Position numbers and translations under genes: made by a program | Part shown: piece after piece, positions 4,350-20,531 of the stretch | Numbering within the stretch: position 1 is the stretch's first letter | How the letters are laid out: each line of letters opens with the position of its first letter | Source: Streptomyces niveus | GTDB lineage: Bacteria; Actinomycetota; Actinomycetes; Streptomycetales; Streptomycetaceae | Reading direction: 5' to 3' | Assembly: GCF_002009175.1 (NCBI RefSeq) | Contig: NZ_CP018047.1 | Span: 4,464,001 to 4,528,000, forward strand | Length of the DNA stretch: 64,000 nucleotides | The notes under the pieces: generated by a model | The model's input: the letters and a program-made list of their open reading frames with translations, nothing else | What the model was told of the DNA's origin: nothing | The model's database searches: none

Positions 4350-5384
4350 GTGAACGACCACGCCGCGAACAGCGACGACGCGACCGAGTACGCCGTACAC
4401 GCCGAAGCGGTCCGCAAGCGGTACGGGGACACGTACGCCCTCGACGGCTTCGACCTCGCCGTACGCACCGGAACCGTGCACGGACTCCTCGGCCCGAACG
4501 GCGCGGGCAAGACCACCGCCGTACGCGCGTTCGCCACCCTCCTCAAGCTCGACGGCGGGCGCGCGACGGTCGCCGGGGCCGATGTGCGCACCGACCCGCG
4601 CACCGTCCGCGCCCGGATCGGGCTCACCGGGCAGTACGCGGCGGTCGACGAGATCCTCACCGGCCGGCAGAACCTGGAGATGTTCGGCCGTCTCTTCCAC
4701 CTCGGCGGCCGGCGGGCCGCGCTGCGCGCCGGGGAACTGCTGGAGCGGTTCGACCTGGTGGACGCGGCGGGCAAGGGCGTACGCGAGTACAGCGGCGGCA
4801 TGCGTCGCCGGCTCGACCTCGCCGCGTCGATGATCCTCGCCCCCCGGGTCCTCTTCCTCGACGAGCCGACGACCGGGCTCGACCCGCGCGGGCGCGGCGA
4901 GGTCTGGGACGCCGTGCGGGCGCTGGTGGCGGGCGGTACGACCGTGCTGCTCACGACGCAGTATCTGGACGAGGCCGACAAGCTCGCCTCGCGCATCACG
5001 GTCATCGACCGGGGGCGGGCGATCGCCGACGACACCCCGGACGGGCTGAAGAACACCGTGGGCGGTGACCTGATCGAGGTCGTCGTCCGCGACGAGCGTG
5101 AACTCACCGTGGCGGCCGAGGTGGTCGCACGCGTCGCGGGATCGGTGCCCGCGACGGACACCGAGGCGCGCCGGGTGCACGCGCCGGTCACCGACCGGGT
5201 GGCCGCGCTGACGGACGTCGCGCGGGAGCTGCGGGACCGGGGGATCGCGGCGGAGGACATCGGCCTGCGCCGGCCGAGCCTGGACGACGTGTTCCTGCGG
5301 CTCACGGGCCACCGTACGGAAGAGGCGCCGGCCGGCGCGACGACGGCGACGACGACGAAGGCGAAGATCGAGGTGGCGGCATGA
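4350..5384 (+). CDS. DrrA-like ABC exporter ATPase
   Basis: 344 residues. Walker A GPNGAGKT is at about 48-55, the signature YSGGM near 149, and Walker [11 protein letters not shown] near 170. The C-terminal extension after the ATPase core is typical of the daunorubicin-resistance (DrrA) subfamily, which powers export of drugs or lipids with a DrrB-type permease. The GTG start has GGAGGGG six bases upstream. The 3' end overlaps the permease start by ATGA, so the two are translated together. Control is probably by the divergent TetR. Confidence 0.93.
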
Positions 5385-6253
5385 GCACGAGCACGGCGGG
5401 CACGACGAGCACGGACCCGAAGGCGGGCGTCGGCGGAGTGAGCCTGGCGGTGGACGACACGCACGGCCGCGCCTACTGGGCGGTGGCCGACTGCTGGAAT
5501 CTCGTACGCCGCAGCCTGACCCACTATCAGCGCCAGCCCTCCTACATCCTCTGGATGCTGGGCTTTCCGCTCGTCTCCGTGCTGCTCTACGGCTATGTCT
5601 TCGGCAGCGCGATGAAGGTGCCGGGCGGGGGTGACTACCGGGAGTTCCTGATGCCGGGCATGTTCACCATGACGATGGCCTTCGGCTTCATGAACACGGC
5701 GACCGCTTTCGTCACCGACTCCAGCAAGGGTGTGCACGACCGCTTCCGCTCGATGCCGATGGCGCCGTCGGCGGTGGTCACGGGGCGCGGCGTCGCGGAC
5801 ATGCTCACCGCCTGCGCGGAACTGGCGATCCTCGCGCTCACGGCCCTGGTGATCGGCTGGCGCGCGGACGGCGGCCTGCTCGCCTCCCTGGCGGCCTTCG
5901 GCCTGCTCATGCTGCTGCGCTTCTCGCTGATCTGGGTGGGAGTCTGGCTCGGCCTGGTGGTCCCGGGCCCCGAACAGGCGGGCAGCCTCTTCGCCGTCGC
6001 CTTCCCGGTGACGATGATCTCCAGCGTCTTCGTCGCCCCGTCCCTGATGCCCAACTGGCTGGGCGTGGTCGCCGCGTGGAACCCGGTGTCGGCGACGGTG
6101 ACGGCGACCCGCGAACTGTTCGGCAACCCGGTGGCGAGCGGCGGCAGTTGGCCGGAGGAACACGCACTGCTGCTGTCGGTGGCCTGGCCGGTGGCGATCA
6201 CGCTGCTGTTCGTCCCGCTGGCGGTCCGCAGATTCCAGCGCCTGAGCCGGTGA
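5381..6253 (+). CDS. DrrB-like ABC-2 exporter permease
   Basis: 290 residues with about six membrane helices and the ABC-2 fold: cytoplasmic N-terminus, then [20 protein letters not shown] as first helix and a conserved [10 protein letters not shown] segment. It should form the membrane channel for the ATPase encoded immediately upstream, exporting an unknown hydrophobic compound. Its start overlaps the ATPase stop. Confidence 0.92.
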
Positions 6254-6256
6254 CCG

Positions 6257-6874
6257 TCAGGTCGCCTTCCTGGGCTCCCCGGACTTGAGTACGGCCGAGA
6301 CGTCGAGCTTCACCTCGGCGCCGATCGACTCCGGGAGGACGATCTGCTCGCCCGGCGCGTGGATGCGGTGGCTGGCGTAGTCGCCGTCGACGGGGTCGGT
6401 GAGCACGTGCAGTCGATTGTGCTTGCGGTCGACGATCACATAGACGGGGATCTTGGCCTCGGCGTAAGCGGTGACCTTGTTCCGCAGGTCCTGCTGGTAG
6501 TTGCCGGAGGTGACTTCGAGGACCAGGCGGAAGACGGCCGGGTCGTAGCAGTTGTACTGCATCAGGTGTTCTTCGAAGTCGGCGTCCACGAGCGAGAGGT
6601 CGGGGACGGCGAAGTCCTCCGGACCGGCGGGAAGCCACAGGCCGATCGCTTGCAGCACCTCCGTCTCGCCTTCGTCCAAACCGGCATCCTCAAAGGGCCG
6701 GGCAAGCTTCCTCAGGGCCCGTGCATGGGCGCCGTCCGGGGGTGGGGCCACGGTGATGACGCCTCCGATGATCTCGACGCGGTAGCCGGGAAGCTGCTCC
6801 ACGATGCTGTCGGCCGTCTCAAGCTGGCTCTCCGGCGGGCCGTCATAGGGGTACTCGGCTGCTGCGGCAGACAT
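6257..6874 (-). CDS. Uma2-family (DUF820) PD-(D/E)XK nuclease-like protein
   Basis: 205 residues from the ATG at 6874, chosen because CAGGAGG precedes it; the frame extends 25 codons further without a binding site. The family pattern is clear: an early YRVEIIGGVI strand, then VPDLSLVD, then RLVLEVTS and a YAEAKIPVYVIVD segment. The Asp and Glu in these strands correspond to the PD-(D/E)XK metal site. Members are abundant in Streptomyces and cyanobacteria, and their biological role is unsettled. It stands alone, convergent with the exporter genes. Confidence 0.88.
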   Translation of the reverse strand: MSAAAAEYPYDGPPESQLETADSIVEQLPGYRVEIIGGVITVAPPPDGAHARALRKLARPFEDAGLDEGETEVLQAIGLWLPAGPEDFAVPDLSLVDADFEEHLMQYNCYDPAVFRLVLEVTSGNYQQDLRNKVTAYAEAKIPVYVIVDRKHNRLHVLTDPVDGDYASHRIHAPGEQIVLPESIGAEVKLDVSAVLKSGEPRKAT

Positions 6875-6963
6875 GAGGGCCTCCTGATGGCTGGTGTCGA
6901 GACCATCATCGTATGCCGGGACAGCCCGATTCGTCGTGAGCGTGATCATTCACGCATAAGAGT

Positions 6964-6999
6964 GACGGCCCCGCCCCCCACGTCGGGGGCGGGGCCGTC
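6964..6999 (-). terminator. Terminator of serC
   Basis: A perfect 15-bp GC-rich stem (GACGGCCCCGCCCCC with its complement) around a 6-base loop, 18 bases after the serC stop. It would stop leftward transcription before the Uma2 gene. Confidence 0.85.
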
Positions 7000-7017
7000 C
7001 AGCGGCTGTGGACCGCG

Positions 7018-11182
<4,165 letters not shown>

Positions 11183-11321
11183 CGGATGCGCTCCCGAGTG
11201 CGCCGGGTCTGCGCGGTCGGTGCCACGGGAGTTGGACGTGGATCTCCCGGGATCGCTTGCTCCGCCGTTCGGATGTGTAGCACTCTGTAGTTGATCGACT
11301 ACCTTCGGGAAGGAACGTGTC

Positions 11322-11435
11322 ATGGGGGATCACCGCAAGCCCGAGCCCGACCTTTCGCAGGGCAAGCCGCCGCCCGGCAACGGCGACAGCGAGGTGCCCA
11401 AACCTCCGCCGCCCTCCGGCAACCGCCGCAAGTAG
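11322..11435 (+). CDS. 37-residue Pro/Lys-rich peptide, candidate RiPP precursor
   Basis: This small gene has a strong ribosome site (GGGAAGGA, 7 bases before ATG) and GC-biased third positions (all but four codons). The peptide starts MGDHRKPEPDLSQG, has a middle NGDSEV segment, PPPP runs and ends in NRRK. It carries three Asp (3, 10, 22) and seven Lys/Arg. Its stop lies 5 bases before the start of a protein-aspartate methyltransferase homologue with no ribosome site of its own, so the two are coupled. This layout matches two-gene imiditide RiPP systems, in which the methyltransferase turns one Asp of a basic peptide into aspartimide. That assignment is inference; no leader/core boundary is visible. 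Confidence 0.7.
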   Translation: MGDHRKPEPDLSQGKPPPGNGDSEVPKPPPPSGNRRK

Positions 11436-11440
11436 CCGCC

Positions 11441-12574
11441 GTGTTCGAGGAGCGGCGGATCGCGCTCGCCGAGGCGATGGCGGAGCGGGACGGCTGGCCC
11501 GCGGACTCGCCATGGGTGCGGGCGGCGGTCGACGCCGTTCCCCGGCACTCCTTCGCACCGGACACGCTGTGGCGCTGGGACGGCGACAGCTACGTCGCGG
11601 TGAGCCGCGCGACGGAGCCCGAGCAGTGGGCGGCCGAGGTCTACGGCGGCCCGGGTGATCCCGCCGTCACACAGGTGGGAGACGGACGCGCCACGTCCAG
11701 CCTGTCCTGTCAGTCCGTCGTGGTGGACATGCTCGACTCCCTGATGCCGGAGCCCGGCCACCGGGTCCTGGAGCTCGGTACCGGCACCGGCTGGAACGCC
11801 GCGCTGCTCGCCCGTCGCGCCGGGCCGGGGCAGGTGACCAGCGTGGAGGCCGACCCCGGCCTCGCGGCGACGGCGCGTGCCCGGCTGGAGGCCGCGGGGG
11901 CGGGTGTCACCGTGGTCACCGGGGACGGGGGGCTCGGTCACGCGCCGGGTGGCCCGTACGACCGGGTCGAGTCGACGTACGCCGTGGAGACCGTCCCGTG
12001 GGAGTGGGTGGCCCAGACCCGGCCCGGTGGACGGATCGTCACCCCGTGGGGCCGTATGGGGCATGTCACCCTCACCGTCGCGGCCGACGGGCTCTCCGCC
12101 ACGGGCTGGGTCCAGGGGCTCGCCCTGTTCATGCCCGCCCGTGGCGCTCCGGCCCGCCTCGGCTGGCCGGAGGTTCGCGGCCACGACCCCGCCGAGGACG
12201 AGGGCACCCACACCCTCGACCTGACGCGACTGGCCGACCCGCACCTGTTGTTCGCGCTGCGGGTGCTCCTGCCGGACGTGGAGATCGTCCTCGGGGACCG
12301 GGACGGACCGGTGGCCTGGGTGCACGACGGCCGTTCCTCCTGGGCGACCCTGACCGCGTCCGCGTCCGGACCGGGCGCCGCCTTCCAGGGTGGGCCACGG
12401 CGCCTTCTCGAGGAGATCGGGACGGCCGTCGCCCGTTGGGAGCACCACGACCGGCCGGATCTCTACGACTTCGGCATGACGCGCACCCCGGACAGCCAGT
12501 ACGTGTGGAGCCACGACAGCGAGACCGGGCCCCGGTGGGCGGCGGTCGCGGGGCTTGGTCAGCCGGTCGGTTGA
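11441..12574 (+). CDS. Protein-L-isoaspartate methyltransferase homologue, candidate peptide-aspartate methyltransferase
   Basis: 377 residues. The class I SAM-binding motif is VLELGTGTGWNAALLARR at about 107-124, with VTSVEADP as the following acidic strand. The upstream VTQ...TSSLSCQS segment is a signature of the PCMT family. True repair PCMTs are about 220 residues; this one has about 150 extra C-terminal residues, as do methyltransferases acting on RiPP precursors, where the extension binds the peptide. The GTG at 11441 is chosen because it follows the peptide stop by 5 bases with no separate ribosome site. The expected reaction is methylation of a peptide Asp side chain, with possible collapse to aspartimide. 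A role as an ordinary repair enzyme cannot be excluded. Confidence 0.85.
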   Translation: MFEERRIALAEAMAERDGWPADSPWVRAAVDAVPRHSFAPDTLWRWDGDSYVAVSRATEPEQWAAEVYGGPGDPAVTQVGDGRATSSLSCQSVVVDMLDSLMPEPGHRVLELGTGTGWNAALLARRAGPGQVTSVEADPGLAATARARLEAAGAGVTVVTGDGGLGHAPGGPYDRVESTYAVETVPWEWVAQTRPGGRIVTPWGRMGHVTLTVAADGLSATGWVQGLALFMPARGAPARLGWPEVRGHDPAEDEGTHTLDLTRLADPHLLFALRVLLPDVEIVLGDRDGPVAWVHDGRSSWATLTASASGPGAAFQGGPRRLLEEIGTAVARWEHHDRPDLYDFGMTRTPDSQYVWSHDSETGPRWAAVAGLGQPVG

Positions 12575-12589
12575 GGGGTGATCCGGTGG

Positions 12590-12983
12590 GGCGGAATGCG
12601 CGCAGTCGCCGGTCGGTGAAGGCGGTCAGCCACTCGAAGATCTCGTTGACGTCGGCGCCCTCGATCTCGTAGCCGCGCAGGACCGCCATGAACGCGTCGA
12701 GCAGCAGTTGCCCAGCGGTGGCCGGCGGATCGTCCGGGCCGGACGGTTCGGCGCCGATCGTCGCGGCGTACCGGCCGGGGTGTTCCAGGACGAAGGCGCG
12801 GTATGCGCGCGGGCGCCAGAGCGGCACGCTGCCGAACGTCGCCGCGCCGAGCAGCCGCAGCATGCCGCGTCGACGGTGGAATCCCCTTCGCGCAGAGCCG
12901 GTGGATCCAGGCACAGTGGCCTTGAGGCCCGGGGGGCCGGTCATCGCATTTCGCGGTGCAGTATGTTGCATGTGATAGTTCAT
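12590..12983 (-). pseudogene. Remnant of a TetR regulator with WHG-type C-terminal domain
   Basis: The frame on this strand encodes RAYRAFVLEHPGRYAATI, the recognisable start of the WHG ligand domain of TetR regulators. The whole helix-turn-helix that should precede it is absent, replaced by an unrelated Arg/Gly-rich stretch after an ATG at 12983. The domain is also too short: after LRGYEIEGAD it jumps to a C-terminal-like EIFEWLTAFTDRRLRAF, as if about 40 residues were deleted, and the frame then runs on into the methyltransferase 3' end without a stop. I read it as a doubly deleted pseudogene. Confidence 0.6.
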
Positions 12984-13026
12984 TGAATTGACCTGATGGG
13001 TCTGGCTGAATCGGAGGAGGATCCCG

Positions 13027-14049
13027 GTGGAGGAGTCGCGTACCGCGGCCGCAGGCGCCGTCGTGGCGGTACCCGAGGCCGTGGGGGTGGCCGCCGGGCC
13101 GCCGGCGGAGAAGGGGCGGCGCACGCTCGGGCCCGTCGCGCTCGTCGTCGGGGGCATGCTCTCCGTGCAGTTCGGCGCCGCCATCGCCGTGCTGCTGATG
13201 CCGCGGGCCGGCGCGGTCGGTGTGGTGACGCTGCGGCTCCTGCTCGCCGCGATCGTGCTGCTCGTGGTCTGCCGGCCCAGGGTCCGCGGTCACTCCCGCG
13301 CAGACTGGGGCACGGTGCTCGTCTTCGGCGCCGTACTGGCCGCCATGAACCTCCTCTTCTACCAGGCCGCCGACCGCATCCCGCTGGGCGCAGCCGTGAC
13401 CTTGGAGGTCCTCGGGCCGCTGACCCTCTCCGTCATCGCCTCCCGCAGGCTCGGGAACCTCCTGTGGGCCGGCCTCGCGCTCGGCGGTGTGGTGCTGCTC
13501 AGCGGCGGCGGGTTCGACCGGCTCGACCCGGTGGGCGCGGCGTTCGCGCTGGCGGCGGGCGCGATGTGGGCGGCGTACATCGTCTTCAGTGCCCGGACCG
13601 GGCAGCGCTTCCCGCAGGCCGACGGGCTCGCGCTGGCCATGGCCTTCGGCGCCGTCCTCACCCTGCCGCTCGGCATCGTCGACGCCGGCTCGAAGCTGCT
13701 GGTGCCTTCCACGATCGGGCTCGGGCTCGCGGTGGCGCTGATGTCGTCCGTCCTGCCGTACACCCTGGAACTGCTGGCGCTGCGGCGGCTGCCCGCGTCG
13801 ACGTTCGCGATCCTGATGAGCGGCGAGCCGGCCCTCGCCGCCATGGCCGGCTTCCTCGTGCTGCATCAGGACCTCTCCCTCACCGACGCGCTGGCGATCG
13901 CGCTGGTCATCATGGCGAGCATGGGCGCCGTCCAGGCGCACGCGGGCAAACGCAGGGCGCGACGCGAGGAGTTGGCCACCGAGGAGCCCGCACCGGGGGA
14001 GCCCGCACCGGACGCCCTGCGGACGGGCGGGGAAAGGACCGGCCGGTAA
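13027..14049 (+). CDS. EamA-family (DMT) exporter, RhtA-like
   Basis: 340 residues with about ten hydrophobic helices in two EamA repeats. A PLGAAVTLEVLGPL segment and SSVLPYTLELLALRRLP are those of the RhtA branch, which exports threonine, homoserine or other amino acids and metabolites. The N-terminus is about 35 residues of Ala/Val-rich cytoplasmic tail, and the C-terminus is charged. The GTG at 13027 has AGGAGGA six bases upstream. The stop codon overlaps the palindrome that begins the next operon's promoter. Confidence 0.88.
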   Translation: MEESRTAAAGAVVAVPEAVGVAAGPPAEKGRRTLGPVALVVGGMLSVQFGAAIAVLLMPRAGAVGVVTLRLLLAAIVLLVVCRPRVRGHSRADWGTVLVFGAVLAAMNLLFYQAADRIPLGAAVTLEVLGPLTLSVIASRRLGNLLWAGLALGGVVLLSGGGFDRLDPVGAAFALAAGAMWAAYIVFSARTGQRFPQADGLALAMAFGAVLTLPLGIVDAGSKLLVPSTIGLGLAVALMSSVLPYTLELLALRRLPASTFAILMSGEPALAAMAGFLVLHQDLSLTDALAIALVIMASMGAVQAHAGKRRARREELATEEPAPGEPAPDALRTGGERTGR

Positions 14050-14089
14050 AGCAAGCACGCTTGCTTGTTTCTCCGGGCGCTGCCATGCT
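14049..14089 (+). promoter_or_regulatory. Operator palindrome and promoter of the acyl-CoA carboxylase operon
   Basis: AAGCAAGC-AC-GCTTGCTT (14049-14066) is a perfect 8-bp inverted repeat. Its right arm contains TTGCTT (14061-14066), and 17 bases later comes CATGCT (14084-14089), a plausible -35/-10 pair. A repressor bound here would block RNA polymerase. A degenerate copy with the same layout precedes the enoyl-CoA hydratase at 27851. The TetR at 28658 is the likely ligand. Confidence 0.7.
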
Positions 14090-14138
14090 CCGGGGCACGC
14101 ACCACGCCGTGTCCCGAGAGCCGATGGGAGTGCGTCCC

Positions 14139-14930
14139 GTGTCCGACCCTGCCGCGCCAGTCCTCGACGATCTGCGCAGCGAGAGTGAGGAAGTCGATCG
14201 GCTCGTGGCCGAGTTGGACGACGGGAGCTGGTCGCTCCCGACCCCGGCGGCCGGCTGGACCGTCGCCCACCAGATCGCTCATCTGGCCTGGACCGACACC
14301 GCGTCGCTGCTCGCCGTGACCGACGAGGCCGCCTTCGCCGACATGGCCGCGAAGGCGCTCGCCGCCCCCGACTCCTTCGTGGACGAGGGCGCCGAGGCCG
14401 GGGCCGCACTGCCGCCGGACCAACTCCTCGCCCACTGGCGCGAGGGCCGCGAACGGCTCCACCGCGCGCTGCGCTCCGCACCGCCCGGCGCGCGTTTCCC
14501 CTGGTACGGGCCGCCGATGAGCGCGCCGTCGATGGCGACCGCGCGCCTGATGGAGACCTGGGCGCACGGCCAGGACATCGCGGACGCGCTCGGCGTACGG
14601 CGCGAGCCGACCGCGCGGCTGCGTCATGTGGCGTGGATCGGCGTACGGGCCCGCGACTACGCCTACCTCGTCCGCGGCGAACAGCCGCCCGCCGCCCCCT
14701 TCCGCGTCGAACTCACCGGACCCGAAGGCCAGTTGTGGACCTACGGCCCCGAGGACGCCGACCAGCGCGTCACCGGGCCCGCCCTGGACTTCTGCCTGCT
14801 CGTGACACAGCGCGCCCACCGCGCCGACCTGGACGTACGGGCCGAGGGTCCGGACGCCGGCCGATGGCTGGACATCGCGCAGGCGTTCGCGGGCCCGGCC
14901 GGTCCCGGCCGCCCGCCGAAGGGGGCCTGA
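14139..14930 (+). CDS. TIGR03084-family metal-binding protein (DinB/MDMPI fold)
   Basis: 263 residues. The N-terminal half is a mycothiol-dependent-isomerase-like four-helix domain with the metal-site pattern TVAHQIAHLAW near 43-53 and ETWAHGQDIAD near 140-150; the histidines in these motifs would hold a divalent metal. The TIGR03084 family sits next to acyl-CoA and terpene catabolism genes in actinobacteria, and its reaction is not known. The GTG at 14139 is chosen because GGGAG precedes it by 8 bases; an ATG 15 bases upstream is possible. Two bases separate it from the AtuA-like gene. Confidence 0.85.
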   Translation: MSDPAAPVLDDLRSESEEVDRLVAELDDGSWSLPTPAAGWTVAHQIAHLAWTDTASLLAVTDEAAFADMAAKALAAPDSFVDEGAEAGAALPPDQLLAHWREGRERLHRALRSAPPGARFPWYGPPMSAPSMATARLMETWAHGQDIADALGVRREPTARLRHVAWIGVRARDYAYLVRGEQPPAAPFRVELTGPEGQLWTYGPEDADQRVTGPALDFCLLVTQRAHRADLDVRAEGPDAGRWLDIAQAFAGPAGPGRPPKGA

Positions 14931-14932
14931 GC

Positions 14933-16654
14933 GTGCCGGACACCTCTGCCCCCACCCGCGACGTCCTGCGCATCGGGAACGCGTCCGGCTTCTACGGCGA
15001 CCGCTTCGACGCGCTGCGCTCCATGCTCACCGGCGGCCCGCTCGACGTGATCACCGGTGACTACCTCGCCGAGCTGACCATGCTCATCCTCGGCCGCGAC
15101 CGGCTGAAGAACCCGGCGTCCGGCTATGCCAGAACATTCCTGCGGCAGTTGGAGGAAGGACTCGGGCTCGCGCAGGAGCGCGGCGTGAAGATCGTCGCCA
15201 ACGCGGGCGGGCTGAACCCGGCGGGACTGGCCGCCGCCGTACGCGAACTGGCCGAGCGCGTCGGCGTTCCCGTACGCGTCGCGCACGTCGAGGGCGACGA
15301 CCTGCTGGCGGCACGCGACTGGGGCGAGGGCGTGCTCACCGCCAACGCCTACCTCGGCGGAGCCGGCATCGCGGAGTGTCTGCGCGGCGGCGCCGATGTG
15401 GTGGTGACCGGCCGGGTCACCGACGCCGCGCTCGTCACCGGGCCCGCCGCCGCGCACTTCGGCTGGGACGCCGACGATCTCGACGCCCTCGCGGGCGCCG
15501 TCGTCGCCGGACACGTCCTGGAGTGCGGCACCCAGGCCACCGGCGGCAACTACTCCTTCTTCGGCGAGCACGACGTCCGCCGCCCCGGCTTCCCGCTCGC
15601 CGAACTCCACGCCGACGGCTCCGCAGTCATCACCAAGCACCCCGGCACCGGCGGAGTCGTCGACATCGGCACCGTCACCGCGCAGTTGCTGTACGAGACC
15701 GGGGGAGCCCGGTACGCCGGACCCGATGTGACGGCCCGGCTCGACACCGTACGGCTCACCCAGGACGGCCCCGACCGGGTCGCGATCTCCGGCGTACGCG
15801 GCGAGGCACCGCCCCCCGCGGTCAAGGTCGGGCTGAACCGGATCGGCGGCTGGCGCAACGAGGTCGTCTTCGTCCTCACCGGACTCGACATCGACGCGAA
15901 GGCGCGCCTGGTGAAGGACCAGATCGCCGACGCGCTGGCGGCGCCGGGCGTCAAGAGGCCGCCGGAGGAGGTCCGTTGGGAGCTGGCCCGCACCGACCGG
16001 GCGGACGCCGACACCGAGGAGACCGCGAGCGCGCTGCTGCGGCTCGTCGTCCGCGACAGCGACCCCGACGCGGTCGGCCGGGCGGTCAGCGGCGCCGCCG
16101 TCGAGCTGGCGCTGAGCAGTTACCCCGGATTCCATGTCACCGCGCCGCCCGGCAAGGGCGCGCCGTACGGCGTCTTCGAGGCGGCGTACGTCCCCGCCGC
16201 CGAGGTCCCGCACACGGCGGTGCTCCCCGACGGCACGCGCGTACCGGTGCCGACCGCCGCCCCCACACGCGTACTTGAACCCGTCCCCGAGCCCCCGCTC
16301 CCCGACCCGCTGCCCGCCGGACCCACCCGGCGCGCCCCGCTCGGACTGGTCGTCGGTGCCCGCAGCGGCGACAAGGGCGGGGACGCCAACGTCGGTGTGT
16401 GGGCGCGCGATCCGCAGGCCTGGCGCTGGCTCGCGCACGAGCTGACCGTCGAGCACCTGCGTCAACTCCTCCCCGAGACAGCCGGTTTGACCGTCACCCG
16501 GCATGTCCTGCCCGACCTGCGCGCGCTCAACTTCACCGTCCAGGGCCTCCTCGGCGAAGGCGTCGCCGCCCGCGCCCGCTTCGACCCGCAGGCCAAGGCG
16601 CTCGGCGAATGGCTGCGCTCCCGCCACGCCGACATCCCGGAGGTACTGCTGTGA
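14933..16654 (+). CDS. AtuA-family acyclic terpene utilisation protein
   Basis: 573 residues matching the AtuA family throughout: IGNASGFYGDR at about 13-23, ITGDYLAELTMLIL at about 42-55, ANAGGLNPAGL near 88-98, and a separate C-terminal domain with VGARSGDKGGDANVGVW near 467-483. AtuA is required for citronellol/geranol catabolism in Pseudomonas, where it works with geranyl-CoA carboxylase; its reaction is undefined. Here it precedes carboxylase genes with which it overlaps by GTGA, so they act in one pathway. The GTG start follows the previous stop by 2 bases. Confidence 0.9.
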   Translation: MPDTSAPTRDVLRIGNASGFYGDRFDALRSMLTGGPLDVITGDYLAELTMLILGRDRLKNPASGYARTFLRQLEEGLGLAQERGVKIVANAGGLNPAGLAAAVRELAERVGVPVRVAHVEGDDLLAARDWGEGVLTANAYLGGAGIAECLRGGADVVVTGRVTDAALVTGPAAAHFGWDADDLDALAGAVVAGHVLECGTQATGGNYSFFGEHDVRRPGFPLAELHADGSAVITKHPGTGGVVDIGTVTAQLLYETGGARYAGPDVTARLDTVRLTQDGPDRVAISGVRGEAPPPAVKVGLNRIGGWRNEVVFVLTGLDIDAKARLVKDQIADALAAPGVKRPPEEVRWELARTDRADADTEETASALLRLVVRDSDPDAVGRAVSGAAVELALSSYPGFHVTAPPGKGAPYGVFEAAYVPAAEVPHTAVLPDGTRVPVPTAAPTRVLEPVPEPPLPDPLPAGPTRRAPLGLVVGARSGDKGGDANVGVWARDPQAWRWLAHELTVEHLRQLLPETAGLTVTRHVLPDLRALNFTVQGLLGEGVAARARFDPQAKALGEWLRSRHADIPEVLL

Positions 16655-18255
16655 CCGTGCTCCACTCGGCGCTGGACACCACATCCCCCGACTACGCCGA
16701 GCACCGCGCCGAGATGCTCACCAAACTCGCGGACCTCGGTACCGAGCACGCCAAGGCGCTGGCCGGCGGCGGCGAGAAGTACGTGGCCCGGCACCGTAAA
16801 CGCGGAAAGCTCCTCGCCCGCGAGCGGATCGAGCTGCTGCTCGACCCCGACACCCCGTTCCTGGAACTGTCCCCGCTCGCCGCCTGGGGCAGCGACTACC
16901 CCGTCGGCGCGTCCATGGTCACCGGCATCGGCGTGGTCGAGGGCGTCGAATGCGTCGTCACCGCCAACGACCCGACCGTGCGCGGCGGCGCGTCCAACCC
17001 CTGGACGCTGAAGAAGGCCCTGCGCGCCAACCGGATCGCGTACGAGAACCGGCTGCCGCTCATCAGCCTCGTAGAGTCCGGCGGTGCCGATCTCCCCTCC
17101 CAGAAGGAGATCTTCATCCCCGGCGGCGCCCTCTTCCGTGACCTGACGCGGCTCTCCGCCGCCGGGATCCCCACGGTGGCGGTCGTCTTCGGCAACTCGA
17201 CGGCGGGCGGGGCGTATGTGCCCGGCATGTCCGACCACACCGTGATGATCAGGGAGCGGTCCAAGGTCTTCCTCGGCGGGCCGCCGCTCGTGAAGATGGC
17301 GACGGGCGAGGAGAGTGACGACGAATCGCTCGGCGGCGCGGAGATGCACGCCCGCCACTCGGGGCTCGCGGACCACTTCGCGGTGGACGAGCCGGACGCG
17401 ATCCACCGGGCGCGCCGGATCGTGGCGCGCCTCAACCACCGCAAGGCGTACGCGGATCCGGACCCGGCGTCGGTCGAGCCTCCGAAGTACGACGAGGACG
17501 AACTGCTCGGCATCGTCCCCGGCGACCTCAAGATCCCCTTCGACCCGCGCGAGGTCGTGGCCCGGATCGTCGACGGCTCGGACTTCGACGAGTTCAAGCC
17601 GCTGTACGGGCCGAGTCTGGTGACCGGCTGGGCGACGCTGTACGGCTGCCCGGTGGGTGTACTGGCCAACGCGCAGGGCGTGTTGTTCAGCGCCGAGTCG
17701 CAGAAGGCCGCGCAGTTCATCCAGCTCGCCAACCAGCGCGACATCCCACTGGTCTTCCTGCACAACACCACCGGCTACATGGTCGGCAAGGAGTACGAGC
17801 AGGGCGGCATCATCAAGCACGGCGCGATGATGATCAACGCGGTCGCCAACTCGAAGGTCCCGCACCTGTCGGTCCTGATGGGCGCGTCGTACGGCGCCGG
17901 GCACTACGGCATGTGCGGCCGGGCCTACGACCCGCGGTTCCTGTTCGCGTGGCCGAGCGCCAAGTCCGCGGTGATGGGGCCGCAGCAACTGGCCGGCGTG
18001 CTGTCGATCGTGGCGAGCGGGTCGGCGGCGGCGAAGGGGAAGCCGTACGACGAGCATGGTGACGCGGCGCTGCGCGCCATGGTGGAGGCGCAGATCGAGT
18101 CGGAGTCGCTGCCGGCGTTCCTCTCCGGGCGGCTCTACGACGACGGCGTCATCGACCCGCGTGACACCCGCACGGTGCTCGGCCTGTGTCTGTCGGCGAT
18201 CCGCACGGCGCCCGTCGAGGGCGTCCGGGGCGGCTTCGGCGTCTTCCGAATGTGA
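16651..18255 (+). CDS. Acyl-CoA carboxylase, carboxyltransferase (beta) subunit
   Basis: 534 residues with both crotonase-like halves of the carboxyltransferase. The ARERIELLLDPDTPFLEL start, GGAYVPGMSDHTVMI, and HNTTGYMVGKEYEQGGIIKHGA near residue 370-390 are diagnostic; the last matches the methylcrotonyl-CoA/geranyl-CoA carboxylase branch rather than propionyl-CoA carboxylase. It transfers the carboxyl group from biotin to a branched 2-enoyl-CoA. It overlaps both neighbours by GTGA, so translation of AtuA-like, beta and alpha subunits is linked. Confidence 0.93.
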   Translation: MTVLHSALDTTSPDYAEHRAEMLTKLADLGTEHAKALAGGGEKYVARHRKRGKLLARERIELLLDPDTPFLELSPLAAWGSDYPVGASMVTGIGVVEGVECVVTANDPTVRGGASNPWTLKKALRANRIAYENRLPLISLVESGGADLPSQKEIFIPGGALFRDLTRLSAAGIPTVAVVFGNSTAGGAYVPGMSDHTVMIRERSKVFLGGPPLVKMATGEESDDESLGGAEMHARHSGLADHFAVDEPDAIHRARRIVARLNHRKAYADPDPASVEPPKYDEDELLGIVPGDLKIPFDPREVVARIVDGSDFDEFKPLYGPSLVTGWATLYGCPVGVLANAQGVLFSAESQKAAQFIQLANQRDIPLVFLHNTTGYMVGKEYEQGGIIKHGAMMINAVANSKVPHLSVLMGASYGAGHYGMCGRAYDPRFLFAWPSAKSAVMGPQQLAGVLSIVASGSAAAKGKPYDEHGDAALRAMVEAQIESESLPAFLSGRLYDDGVIDPRDTRTVLGLCLSAIRTAPVEGVRGGFGVFRM

Positions 18256-20531
18256 GGCCTACGTTGATATCGACTCTCCTTGTCGCGAACCGTGGCGAGA
18301 TCGCCTGCCGCGTCTTCCGGACCTGCCGCGAGCGGGGCATCGGCACGGTCGCGGTCTTCTCGGACGCGGACGCCGACGCGCTGCACGTACGCGAGGCGGA
18401 CGCGGCGGTACGGCTGCCGGGTGCCGCCCCCGCCGACACGTATCTGCGCGGCGACCTGATCGTGAAGGCGGCCCTCGCGGCGGGCGCGGACGCGGTGCAC
18501 CCGGGCTACGGATTCCTCTCCGAGAACGCCGGGTTCGCGCGGGCGGTGCTCGACGCGGGACTGGTGTGGGTGGGGCCGCCGCCGGAGGCGATCGAGGCGA
18601 TGGCGTCCAAGACCCGGGCGAAGGAGCTGATGGCGGCGGCGGGCGTGCCGCTCCTGGCACCGGTGGACCCGGCCTCGGCGACCGAGGCGGATCTGCCGCT
18701 GCTGATCAAGGCGGCGGCGGGCGGCGGCGGCCGGGGAATGCGGGTGGTCCGCTCGCTCGACACGCTCGCGGAGGAGTGGGAGGCGGCCCGCGCGGAGGCC
18801 CGCTCGGCGTTCGGCGACGGCGAGGTCTTCGCGGAGCCGTACGTGGAGCGCGGCCGCCACGTCGAGGTCCAGATCCTCGCCGACGCGTACGGCACGGTGT
18901 GGGCGCTGGGCACCCGCGACTGCTCCCTGCAACGGCGGCACCAGAAGGTGATCGAGGAGTGCCCGGCGCCGGGCCTGACGGCGGAGCTGCGCGCCACCCT
19001 GACGGACGCGGCGGTCGCGGCGGCGCGGGCGGTGGAGTACCGGGGCGCGGGCACGGTCGAGTTCCTGCTCACCCCGACAGGCCGCGCGTACTTCCTGGAG
19101 ATGAACACCCGCCTCCAGGTCGAACACCCGGTGACTGAGGAGGTGTTCGGCGTGGACCTGGTGGCGCTCCAGCTCGCCCTGGCGGAGAGCGCGAAGCTCC
19201 CGCCCGAGCCACCTGCCCCGTACGGCCACGCGGTGGAGGCCCGCCTGTACGCGGAGGACCCGTCCCAGGACTGGGCCCCCCAGCCGGGCCGCGTCCACGA
19301 GTTGACGGTGCGGGGGGTGGGCGAGGGCGGCCCGTCGTACGGGCTGCGGGCGTACGGGCTGCGGGCCGCGTGGCCCGCGGGAGCGGCCGCGACGGGCCCG
19401 TTCGGCGCGGGCGGCGCGGGCGCGACGGGCCCGTTCGGCCGGGCCGAGACGGGCGTGGGGGCGGTCGATCCGGGTCGGATCGGCGCGCAGCCTCCGTGGC
19501 CTGCGGGAGCGGTCGGACCGGCTGACGCGAGTACACGGGCCGTCGATCCGGGTCGGATCGGCGTCGTGGGCGCGGTCGGGACGGGCCGCCCCGGTCCGGA
19601 CGCCTTCGGCCCGAGCGCGACGGGCCCCGCCCCCGGCACCCGCGCCCCGGACGCCCCCGAACCCGCAATCGCCGGGCACCCACGCCTCCGCGTCGACACC
19701 GGGTACGGCCCCGGCGACAGCGTCGGCGTGCACTACGACTCCATGCTCGCCAAGGTGATCGCCTGGGCGCCCACCCGTGCCGAGGCCGTGCGGCGGCTGG
19801 CCGACGCGCTGCGGCGGGCCCGGGTGCACGGGCCGGTCACCAATCGCGAACTGCTCGTACGGTCCCTGCTGCACCCGGACTTCACCGGCGGGCTGCTCGA
19901 CACCGGGTTCTACGAACGGCACCTCACCGCGCTCACCGGGCCGGTGGCCGACGGCGGCGGCCGGAGCGCCGCCGTTGCCGCCGCCCTCGCCGACGCCGTA
20001 CGCCGGGGGCACCCCGTCGGCGGGTGGCGGAACCTCGCGTCGCAGCCGCAGACCAAGACGTACGGCGAGCACGAGGTGCGCTACCACCGCACCCGCGAAG
20101 GGTTCCGCGTCGAGGACGACGCCCTACGCGTCGTCGCCGTCGCCCCCCACCGCGTAAGCCTCGAAGTCGACGGCGTGCTGCGCCACTTCGACGTCGCCGA
20201 CCACGGCGACCACGTCTACGTCGACAGCCCCGCCGGCTCCTACCGGCTCCGCGTCCACCCCCGCTTCACCGACCCCCGGACCGCCACCGCGCCCGGTTCG
20301 CTGCTCGCGCCCATGCCCGGCACCGTCGTACGGATCGCGGACGGGCTCGGCGAAGGCAGTGCCGTCACCGCAGGGCAGCCGCTCATCTGGCTGGAGGCCA
20401 TGAAGATGGAGCACCGCATCACCGCTCCCGCCTCCGGCACGCTCACCGCGCTCCACGCCGTCCCCGGCAGCCAGGTCGAGGTCGGCGCGCTCCTCGCCGT
20501 AGTCACGGACACCGCCCAGGAGGACACATGA
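18252..20531 (+). CDS. Acyl-CoA carboxylase, biotin carboxylase/biotin carrier (alpha) subunit with an internal insertion
   Basis: 759 residues. A biotin carboxylase domain starts at LLVANRGEIACRVF and has the ATP-grasp loop AAAGGGGRGM near 155-165 and EMNTRLQVEHPVTEE near 285-300; the biotin carrier ends the protein with EAMKMEH (biotinyl Lys718). It carboxylates its own biotin with ATP and bicarbonate for the beta subunit. Oddly, residues of about 356-475 are a Gly/Ala/Pro-rich, repetitive stretch inserted in the biotin carboxylase C-terminal domain (between HELTVRG and HPRLRVDTG). The GTG at 18252 overlaps the previous stop; a TTG 12 bases on is the alternative. Confidence 0.92.
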   Translation: MRPTLISTLLVANRGEIACRVFRTCRERGIGTVAVFSDADADALHVREADAAVRLPGAAPADTYLRGDLIVKAALAAGADAVHPGYGFLSENAGFARAVLDAGLVWVGPPPEAIEAMASKTRAKELMAAAGVPLLAPVDPASATEADLPLLIKAAAGGGGRGMRVVRSLDTLAEEWEAARAEARSAFGDGEVFAEPYVERGRHVEVQILADAYGTVWALGTRDCSLQRRHQKVIEECPAPGLTAELRATLTDAAVAAARAVEYRGAGTVEFLLTPTGRAYFLEMNTRLQVEHPVTEEVFGVDLVALQLALAESAKLPPEPPAPYGHAVEARLYAEDPSQDWAPQPGRVHELTVRGVGEGGPSYGLRAYGLRAAWPAGAAATGPFGAGGAGATGPFGRAETGVGAVDPGRIGAQPPWPAGAVGPADASTRAVDPGRIGVVGAVGTGRPGPDAFGPSATGPAPGTRAPDAPEPAIAGHPRLRVDTGYGPGDSVGVHYDSMLAKVIAWAPTRAEAVRRLADALRRARVHGPVTNRELLVRSLLHPDFTGGLLDTGFYERHLTALTGPVADGGGRSAAVAAALADAVRRGHPVGGWRNLASQPQTKTYGEHEVRYHRTREGFRVEDDALRVVAVAPHRVSLEVDGVLRHFDVADHGDHVYVDSPAGSYRLRVHPRFTDPRTATAPGSLLAPMPGTVVRIADGLGEGSAVTAGQPLIWLEAMKMEHRITAPASGTLTALHAVPGSQVEVGALLAVVTDTAQEDT
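19317..19676 (+). repeat. Repetitive 120-codon insertion inside the biotin carboxylase gene
   Basis: In-frame low-complexity segment. The peptide repeats YGLRA, WPAGA, ATGPFG and VDPGRIG each occur twice, and at DNA level GTCGATCCGGGTCGGATCGG occurs near 19468 and 19549. Homologues of this family join the flanking sequences directly. It is in phase with no stop, so the enzyme may tolerate it as a loop. Confidence 0.75.

Follow-up and report, generated by a model that had tools for sequence, protein, structure and literature searches.

A putative imiditide cassette in Streptomyces niveus

A pair of adjacent genes at positions 11322-12574 of a 64,000-nucleotide stretch of Streptomyces niveus DNA (NZ_CP018047.1; hereafter the window) is very probably an imiditide, or type I pamtide, cassette, in which a short precursor peptide is combined with an aspartyl O-methyltransferase. 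This reading is based on the gene layout, the peptide composition, the C-terminal domain of the enzyme and the absence of other genes for ribosomally synthesized and post-translationally modified peptides (RiPPs) nearby, which match the published descriptions of imiditides (PMC10787088, PMC13001092). Two names were given to the class when it was described, in 2023 (PMC10787088 and a paper cited there). PMC13001092 counts 1,414 type I members and gives the biological role of imiditides as unknown. Judged by sequence, the window pair is a further member of this known, widespread class and no new kind of system. What is added here is the alignment of one subfamily, with a near-constant core across Streptomycetaceae, Asp-Ser variants, and fused and orphan states of the genes; the 48 aligned precursors point to a single target residue, and the two genes travel and decay together.

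The precursor gene (11322-11435, plus strand; ATG at 11322, TAG at 11433-11435) encodes the 37-residue peptide MGDHRKPEPDLSQGKPPPGNGDSEVPKPPPPSGNRRK and is preceded by a Shine-Dalgarno sequence, GGAAGG (11308-11313, plus strand), with a spacer of 8 bases to the ATG. Five bases separate its stop codon from the GTG start, at 11441, of the methyltransferase gene (11441-12574, plus strand), which encodes a 377-residue PAMT/PIMT homologue with a C-terminal domain and before which no Shine-Dalgarno-like run is visible in the sequence. The peptide is basic (net charge +2) and rich in proline (10 Pro), carries Asp at positions 3, 10 and 22, and contains no Asp-Gly. In these respects the first-pass annotation of the window had described the pair correctly. 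The peptide DNA differs from that of the nearest relative, Streptomyces sp. NP-1717 (L028), by nine synonymous and no non-synonymous changes; a random single change is synonymous in 24% of cases. A chance open reading frame (ORF) is ruled out by this synonymous-only divergence and by the wide conservation of the peptide beside related enzymes.

Co-occurrence of peptide and enzyme

The pairing was followed through 54 enzyme loci: the window's own; 19 others that match at E ≤ 1e-80 in a set of 295 Streptomyces genomes; five of the 11 loci of another search, the six more distant ones being used as controls; and 29 of the 45 additional matches in 200 genomes of the family. The remaining 16 rows had no locus and were left out, except for the second enzyme copy in the L068 genome. 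A peptide profile built from nine of the examined peptides, which match by construction, found a peptide next to the enzyme in 51 of the 54 loci. As two loci are duplicates (L029 of L013, L032 of L024), this corresponds to 49 of 52 distinct loci, with the peptide fused to the enzyme in L009. The profile gave no match, at E values up to 0.1, in control loci totalling 327,161 bases. The same gene pair, which the first-pass annotation had proposed to look for in relatives together with a conserved Asp, is present at most of these loci.

The enzyme was found at E ≤ 1e-80 in 19 of the 295 Streptomyces genomes and at E ≤ 1e-60 in 10 of the 17 genera of the family sample. When a 22-row peptide alignment was searched against 291 Streptomyces genomes at E ≤ 1e-6, 18 contained a match, and 17 of these are among the 19 enzyme genomes; the two enzyme genomes lacking a match at this threshold are G225, which carries the fusion (found at 2.5e-5), and G120.

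The predicted target residue

The peptide alignment comprises 48 peptides with an intact core, among them L082, which lacks a normal N-terminus. Gly14, Pro17, Pro18, Asn20, Asp22 and Gly33 are invariant, K6 and K37 are each present in 45 of the 48, and residue 35 is H or R in all 48. The precursor termini therefore carry conserved residues of the acidic/basic type (K6, residue 35 and K37). Asp22 (codon 11385-11387, plus strand) is the sole invariant acidic residue, Asp being found at position 10 in 36 and at position 3 in five of the peptides, and it is the predicted site of modification. Asp22 is present in 48/48 sequences, in a PPPGNxD context, and the residue that follows it is Gly in 44, Ser in three (the window, L028 and L075) and Val in one (L065). 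A protein database search with a 14-row peptide alignment listed 82 peptides, the window's own included, none of which has a functional name. The motif PPxNxD occurs in 80 of these, followed by Gly in 73 and by Ser in seven (window included). The two peptides without the motif are P0167, in which Thr replaces Asn and Asp-Gly is kept, and P0203. The latter is a natural deletion product in which the peptide start is joined to the enzyme's C-terminal end and the N-x-D motif is broken.

From the absence of Asp-Gly, the first-pass annotation had suggested that the modified residue or the chemistry could be new, a suggestion weakened by the invariance of Asp22 and by the prevalence of Asp-Gly in related peptides. 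Because Asp22 is invariant and the Ser variant recurs in several different peptides, the missing Asp-Gly is read as a change beside the known site and not as a sign of another target. In general peptide chemistry, ring closure is slower with Ser than with Gly at the n+1 position, and slower closure is accordingly predicted at the Asp-Ser of the window peptide. Related enzymes that are paired in nature with either Asp-Gly or Asp-Ser peptides offer material for studying the effect of n+1 on the choice between ester, aspartimide and isoaspartate (isoAsp). A residue other than Gly at n+1 is already found among published imiditides: NmaA has His (PMC13001092).

The basic C-terminal tail, GNRRK (11418-11432, plus strand), which contains the conserved Gly33 and Lys37, is a likely enzyme recognition element, by comparison with the C-terminal residues of SpaA (PMC10787088). 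The aligned peptides average 38 residues and are somewhat shorter than published imiditides. Their median pairwise identity, gaps excluded, is 0.64, a value inflated by the Pro-rich make-up, compared with 0.57 for the enzymes, which hints at a constrained role rather than a diversifying antibiotic.

The methyltransferase

The enzyme matches PF01135 at 4.4e-24 and contains the motif I for binding S-adenosylmethionine (SAM), LELGTGTG (residues 110-117; 11768-11791, plus strand), as the first-pass annotation had noted. Its best NCBIfam matches are TIGR04188, with 234 bits over residues 18-353, and TIGR04364. An AlphaFold2 model (mean predicted local distance difference test score, pLDDT, 88.3; predicted template modelling score, pTM, 0.86) has a two-domain fold, and the enzyme, of more than 300 residues, has an extra C-terminal domain with a predicted strand-helix-four strands-helix order (residues 253-335; 12197-12445, plus strand). 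The acidic stretch DPAEDEG (residues 249-255; 12185-12205, plus strand) is a candidate for interaction with the basic tail of the peptide, by analogy with the acidic loop described for NmaM (PMC13001092). WEHHDRP (12437-12457, plus strand) is the counterpart in the alignment of WxxxGxP, a motif of RiPP-associated enzymes.

The catalytic domain is near repair enzymes in both sequence and fold (E. coli 3lbf; Thermotoga 1dl5). No structure of a RiPP-associated enzyme was in the fold-comparison list, which does not exclude the existence of one. A 63-enzyme tree separates the 48 sequences that accompany a peptide, together with L009, L026, L068 and L073, from the 11 paralogues with a support of 0.999.

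Comparison with characterised systems

The closest counterparts, compared through their published descriptions, are the imiditides or type I pamtides NmaA-NmaM of Nonomuraea maritima and SpaA-SpaM of Streptomyces sparsogenes (PMC10787088, PMC13001092). Common to these and the window are two genes, a short linear peptide rich in Pro, Gly, Asp and Lys with a basic C-terminal tail, an invariant Asp amid Pro and Gly, and an enzyme of more than 300 residues with a C-terminal domain and a WxxxGxP-like motif. The window pair differs from the published type I pamtides in its shorter and more Pro-rich peptide, in Ser at n+1 and in Asp for Gly within WxxxGxP. Cysimiditides, or type II pamtides (FcaA-FcaM), have the two-gene layout and the enzyme family in common with the window but carry a four-cysteine zinc ribbon, as described in PMC10787088, whereas the window peptide contains no Cys and so lacks the CxxCxGxG motifs of that ribbon. 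Graspimiditides (fuscimiditide, SsfA) and the FxLD lanthipeptide systems employ a homologous methyltransferase; unlike them, the window pair has, among ten neighbouring proteins that were scanned, no enzyme of the ATP-grasp, lanthionine or lasso type. Canonical PIMT (3lbf, 1dl5) has the catalytic domain and SAM motif in common with the window enzyme but is a repair enzyme that acts on isoAsp of damaged proteins. The C-terminal domain is absent from E. coli PIMT (PMC13001092); 1dl5 has one.

Proposed mechanism and alternative explanations

According to the published descriptions (PMC10787088, PMC13001092), the enzymes of this group act on a linear precursor, in which they methylate a single Asp, and the ester passes through an aspartimide to isoAsp and Asp; the C-terminal residues of SpaA are needed (PMC10787088), the acidic loop of NmaM matters and the n+1 residue alters ester build-up (both PMC13001092). 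By analogy to NmaA/NmaM and SpaA/SpaM, from which both chemistry and recognition are taken, the most likely course for the window pair is methylation of Asp22 followed by formation of an aspartimide and then mainly isoAsp. The ribosome would make the 37-residue peptide and then the methyltransferase, the two probably being translationally coupled despite the 5 bases between them. The linear peptide would be held by the enzyme, probably through contact of its basic C-terminal tail with the acidic patch in the C-terminal domain, and the Asp22 side chain would be methylated with SAM. Attack of a backbone amide on the ester would release methanol and generate the aspartimide, which would open in water mainly to isoaspartate.

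Several observations weigh against the imiditide assignment. The NCBIfam scores are below the curated cut-offs (234 versus 380 bits for TIGR04188, 129 versus 320 for TIGR04364), and the enzyme is therefore assigned by family and context. The WxxxGxP motif of the window enzyme carries Asp in place of Gly, a substitution seen in three of 16 aligned sequences, window included, the other 13 having Gly. The imiditide-like reading of the first-pass annotation is upheld by the sequence-level tests, with this motif matched in part only. The match to 1dl5 has a high root-mean-square deviation, so the two domains of the model would be placed differently or are loosely aligned. On the peptide side, Asp22 of the window is followed by Ser, the Pro content is above the average of published imiditides, and net charge ranges from -5 to +4 across the 48 peptides, so that "basic" does not hold for the whole family; over the final eight residues, three of the 48 carry a negative net charge and two are neutral. 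Three of the 52 distinct enzyme loci (L026, L068 and L073) have no peptide match; the L068 genome also contains another copy of the enzyme, preceded by a normal peptide. In L009 (genome G225), likewise a natural deletion product, the first 20 peptide residues are fused in frame to the start of the enzyme, and Asp22 is absent. G121, the remaining genome of the 18 with a peptide match, carries an orphan peptide gene, open and with Asp-Ser (L154/L165, G121:C142:676511-676621). The 1.5 kb flanking this gene on each side contains no enzyme, and within ~128 kb on the contig no homologue reaches E ≤ 1e-10; enzyme homologues of 35-47% identity are located elsewhere in that genome.

The PCMT core, the coupled layout and the proximity of the catalytic domain to repair enzymes, including 1dl5, which is named a PIMT and likewise carries a C-terminal domain, would suit a stand-alone isoAsp-repair methyltransferase whose expression is set by the small ORF as a translational leader. 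We consider this highly unlikely, as the peptide has diverged from that of L028 by synonymous change only, is conserved at least as well as the enzyme (with the reservation on Pro content given above) and keeps its N-x-D core in all 48 sequences. Moreover, a housekeeping repair PIMT without a dedicated peptide substrate is at odds with a peptide at 49 of 52 distinct loci and an enzyme found at E ≤ 1e-80 in only 19 of 295 genomes.

Two further alternatives accept modification at Asp22. Ser at n+1 may make the methyl ester or a long-lived aspartimide, instead of isoAsp, the lasting product; changing n+1 of NmaA to Thr raised the methylated species and changing it to Gly lowered them (PMC13001092), and Asp-Ser occurs in seven of the 80 motif-containing database peptides. 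Since Gly strongly predominates at n+1 across the family, which favours one common product, this outcome appears rather unlikely. It is also possible, if on balance doubtful, that the modified peptide has an intracellular role, in regulation or stress, and is not a secreted natural product. The core is nearly constant across genera, and no conserved neighbour of at least 120 residues, hence no protease or exporter, travels with the pair; yet patchy presence and degenerate fusions suggest a dispensable trait, and exporters may lie elsewhere. The combined proposal, that Asp-Ser members represent slowed ring closure with a lasting ester or aspartimide and that the near-constant family-wide core reflects a conserved physiological role and not an antibiotic, strikes us as distinctly improbable.

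Genomic neighbourhood and upstream region

The cassette is flanked by genes for an FAD-linked oxidase and an EamA transporter, both common in the genus at the search thresholds (115 of 121 and 51 of 61 genomes, respectively). Among 29 further oxidase loci, 16 have the transporter behind the oxidase gene, in the same orientation and within 1.5 kb, the distance being ~220 bases or less in five of them; in the other 13, including a locus that ends after 258 bases, it was not seen there. The methyltransferase is absent from that place at all 29 loci. The flanking genes are thus often neighbours where the cassette is absent, and the cassette is therefore best seen, from these sequence comparisons, as an accessory, free-standing two-gene unit set between two common genes. 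The oxidase-EamA gap itself varies among genomes, from ~44 to 1,217 bases at the loci that show both genes (window 11182-13027; L088 4485-5220).

Among 24 wide loci, the window's neighbours recur beside the cassette only in L028; three others contain an ABC ATPase of 29-39% identity. When ORFs of at least 120 residues from 25 loci were clustered, nothing recurred in more than five loci except the enzyme and its antisense frames, and a larger operon with a recurrent third ORF of this size was rejected. No RiPP enzyme, including any graspetide, lanthipeptide or lasso cyclase, was found among the ten neighbouring proteins scanned (4350-20531, not every ORF), which leaves a two-gene cluster of short precursor and PIMT-like enzyme with no other primary RiPP enzyme. 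Just behind the methyltransferase, on the minus strand, the stretch 12651-12809 matches the TetR C-terminal domain only (PF13305, 3.7e-9) and looks like a remnant.

Upstream, the near-palindrome GTAGTTGATCGACTAC (11287-11302, no strand assigned), 19 bases ahead of the peptide start codon, lies within a 38-base stretch (11276-11313) identical to that of L028 and is a possible part of a promoter or operator. It was rejected as a regulatory repeat, as the window holds no second copy and the whole genome only one further site with at most one mismatch. Folding of the leader RNA was no better than that of shuffled sequences (z 0.42).

A second peptide-methyltransferase pair is located outside the window in the same genome (G000:C1:3234070-3235116; L002, L057), with an enzyme 45% identical to that of the window. 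Its peptide carries AESDGHKPDKPIPPP, L156, L157 and L158 retain AE[SG]DGHKPD[KR]PIPP, and by sequence the pair appears to represent a second imiditide-like family.
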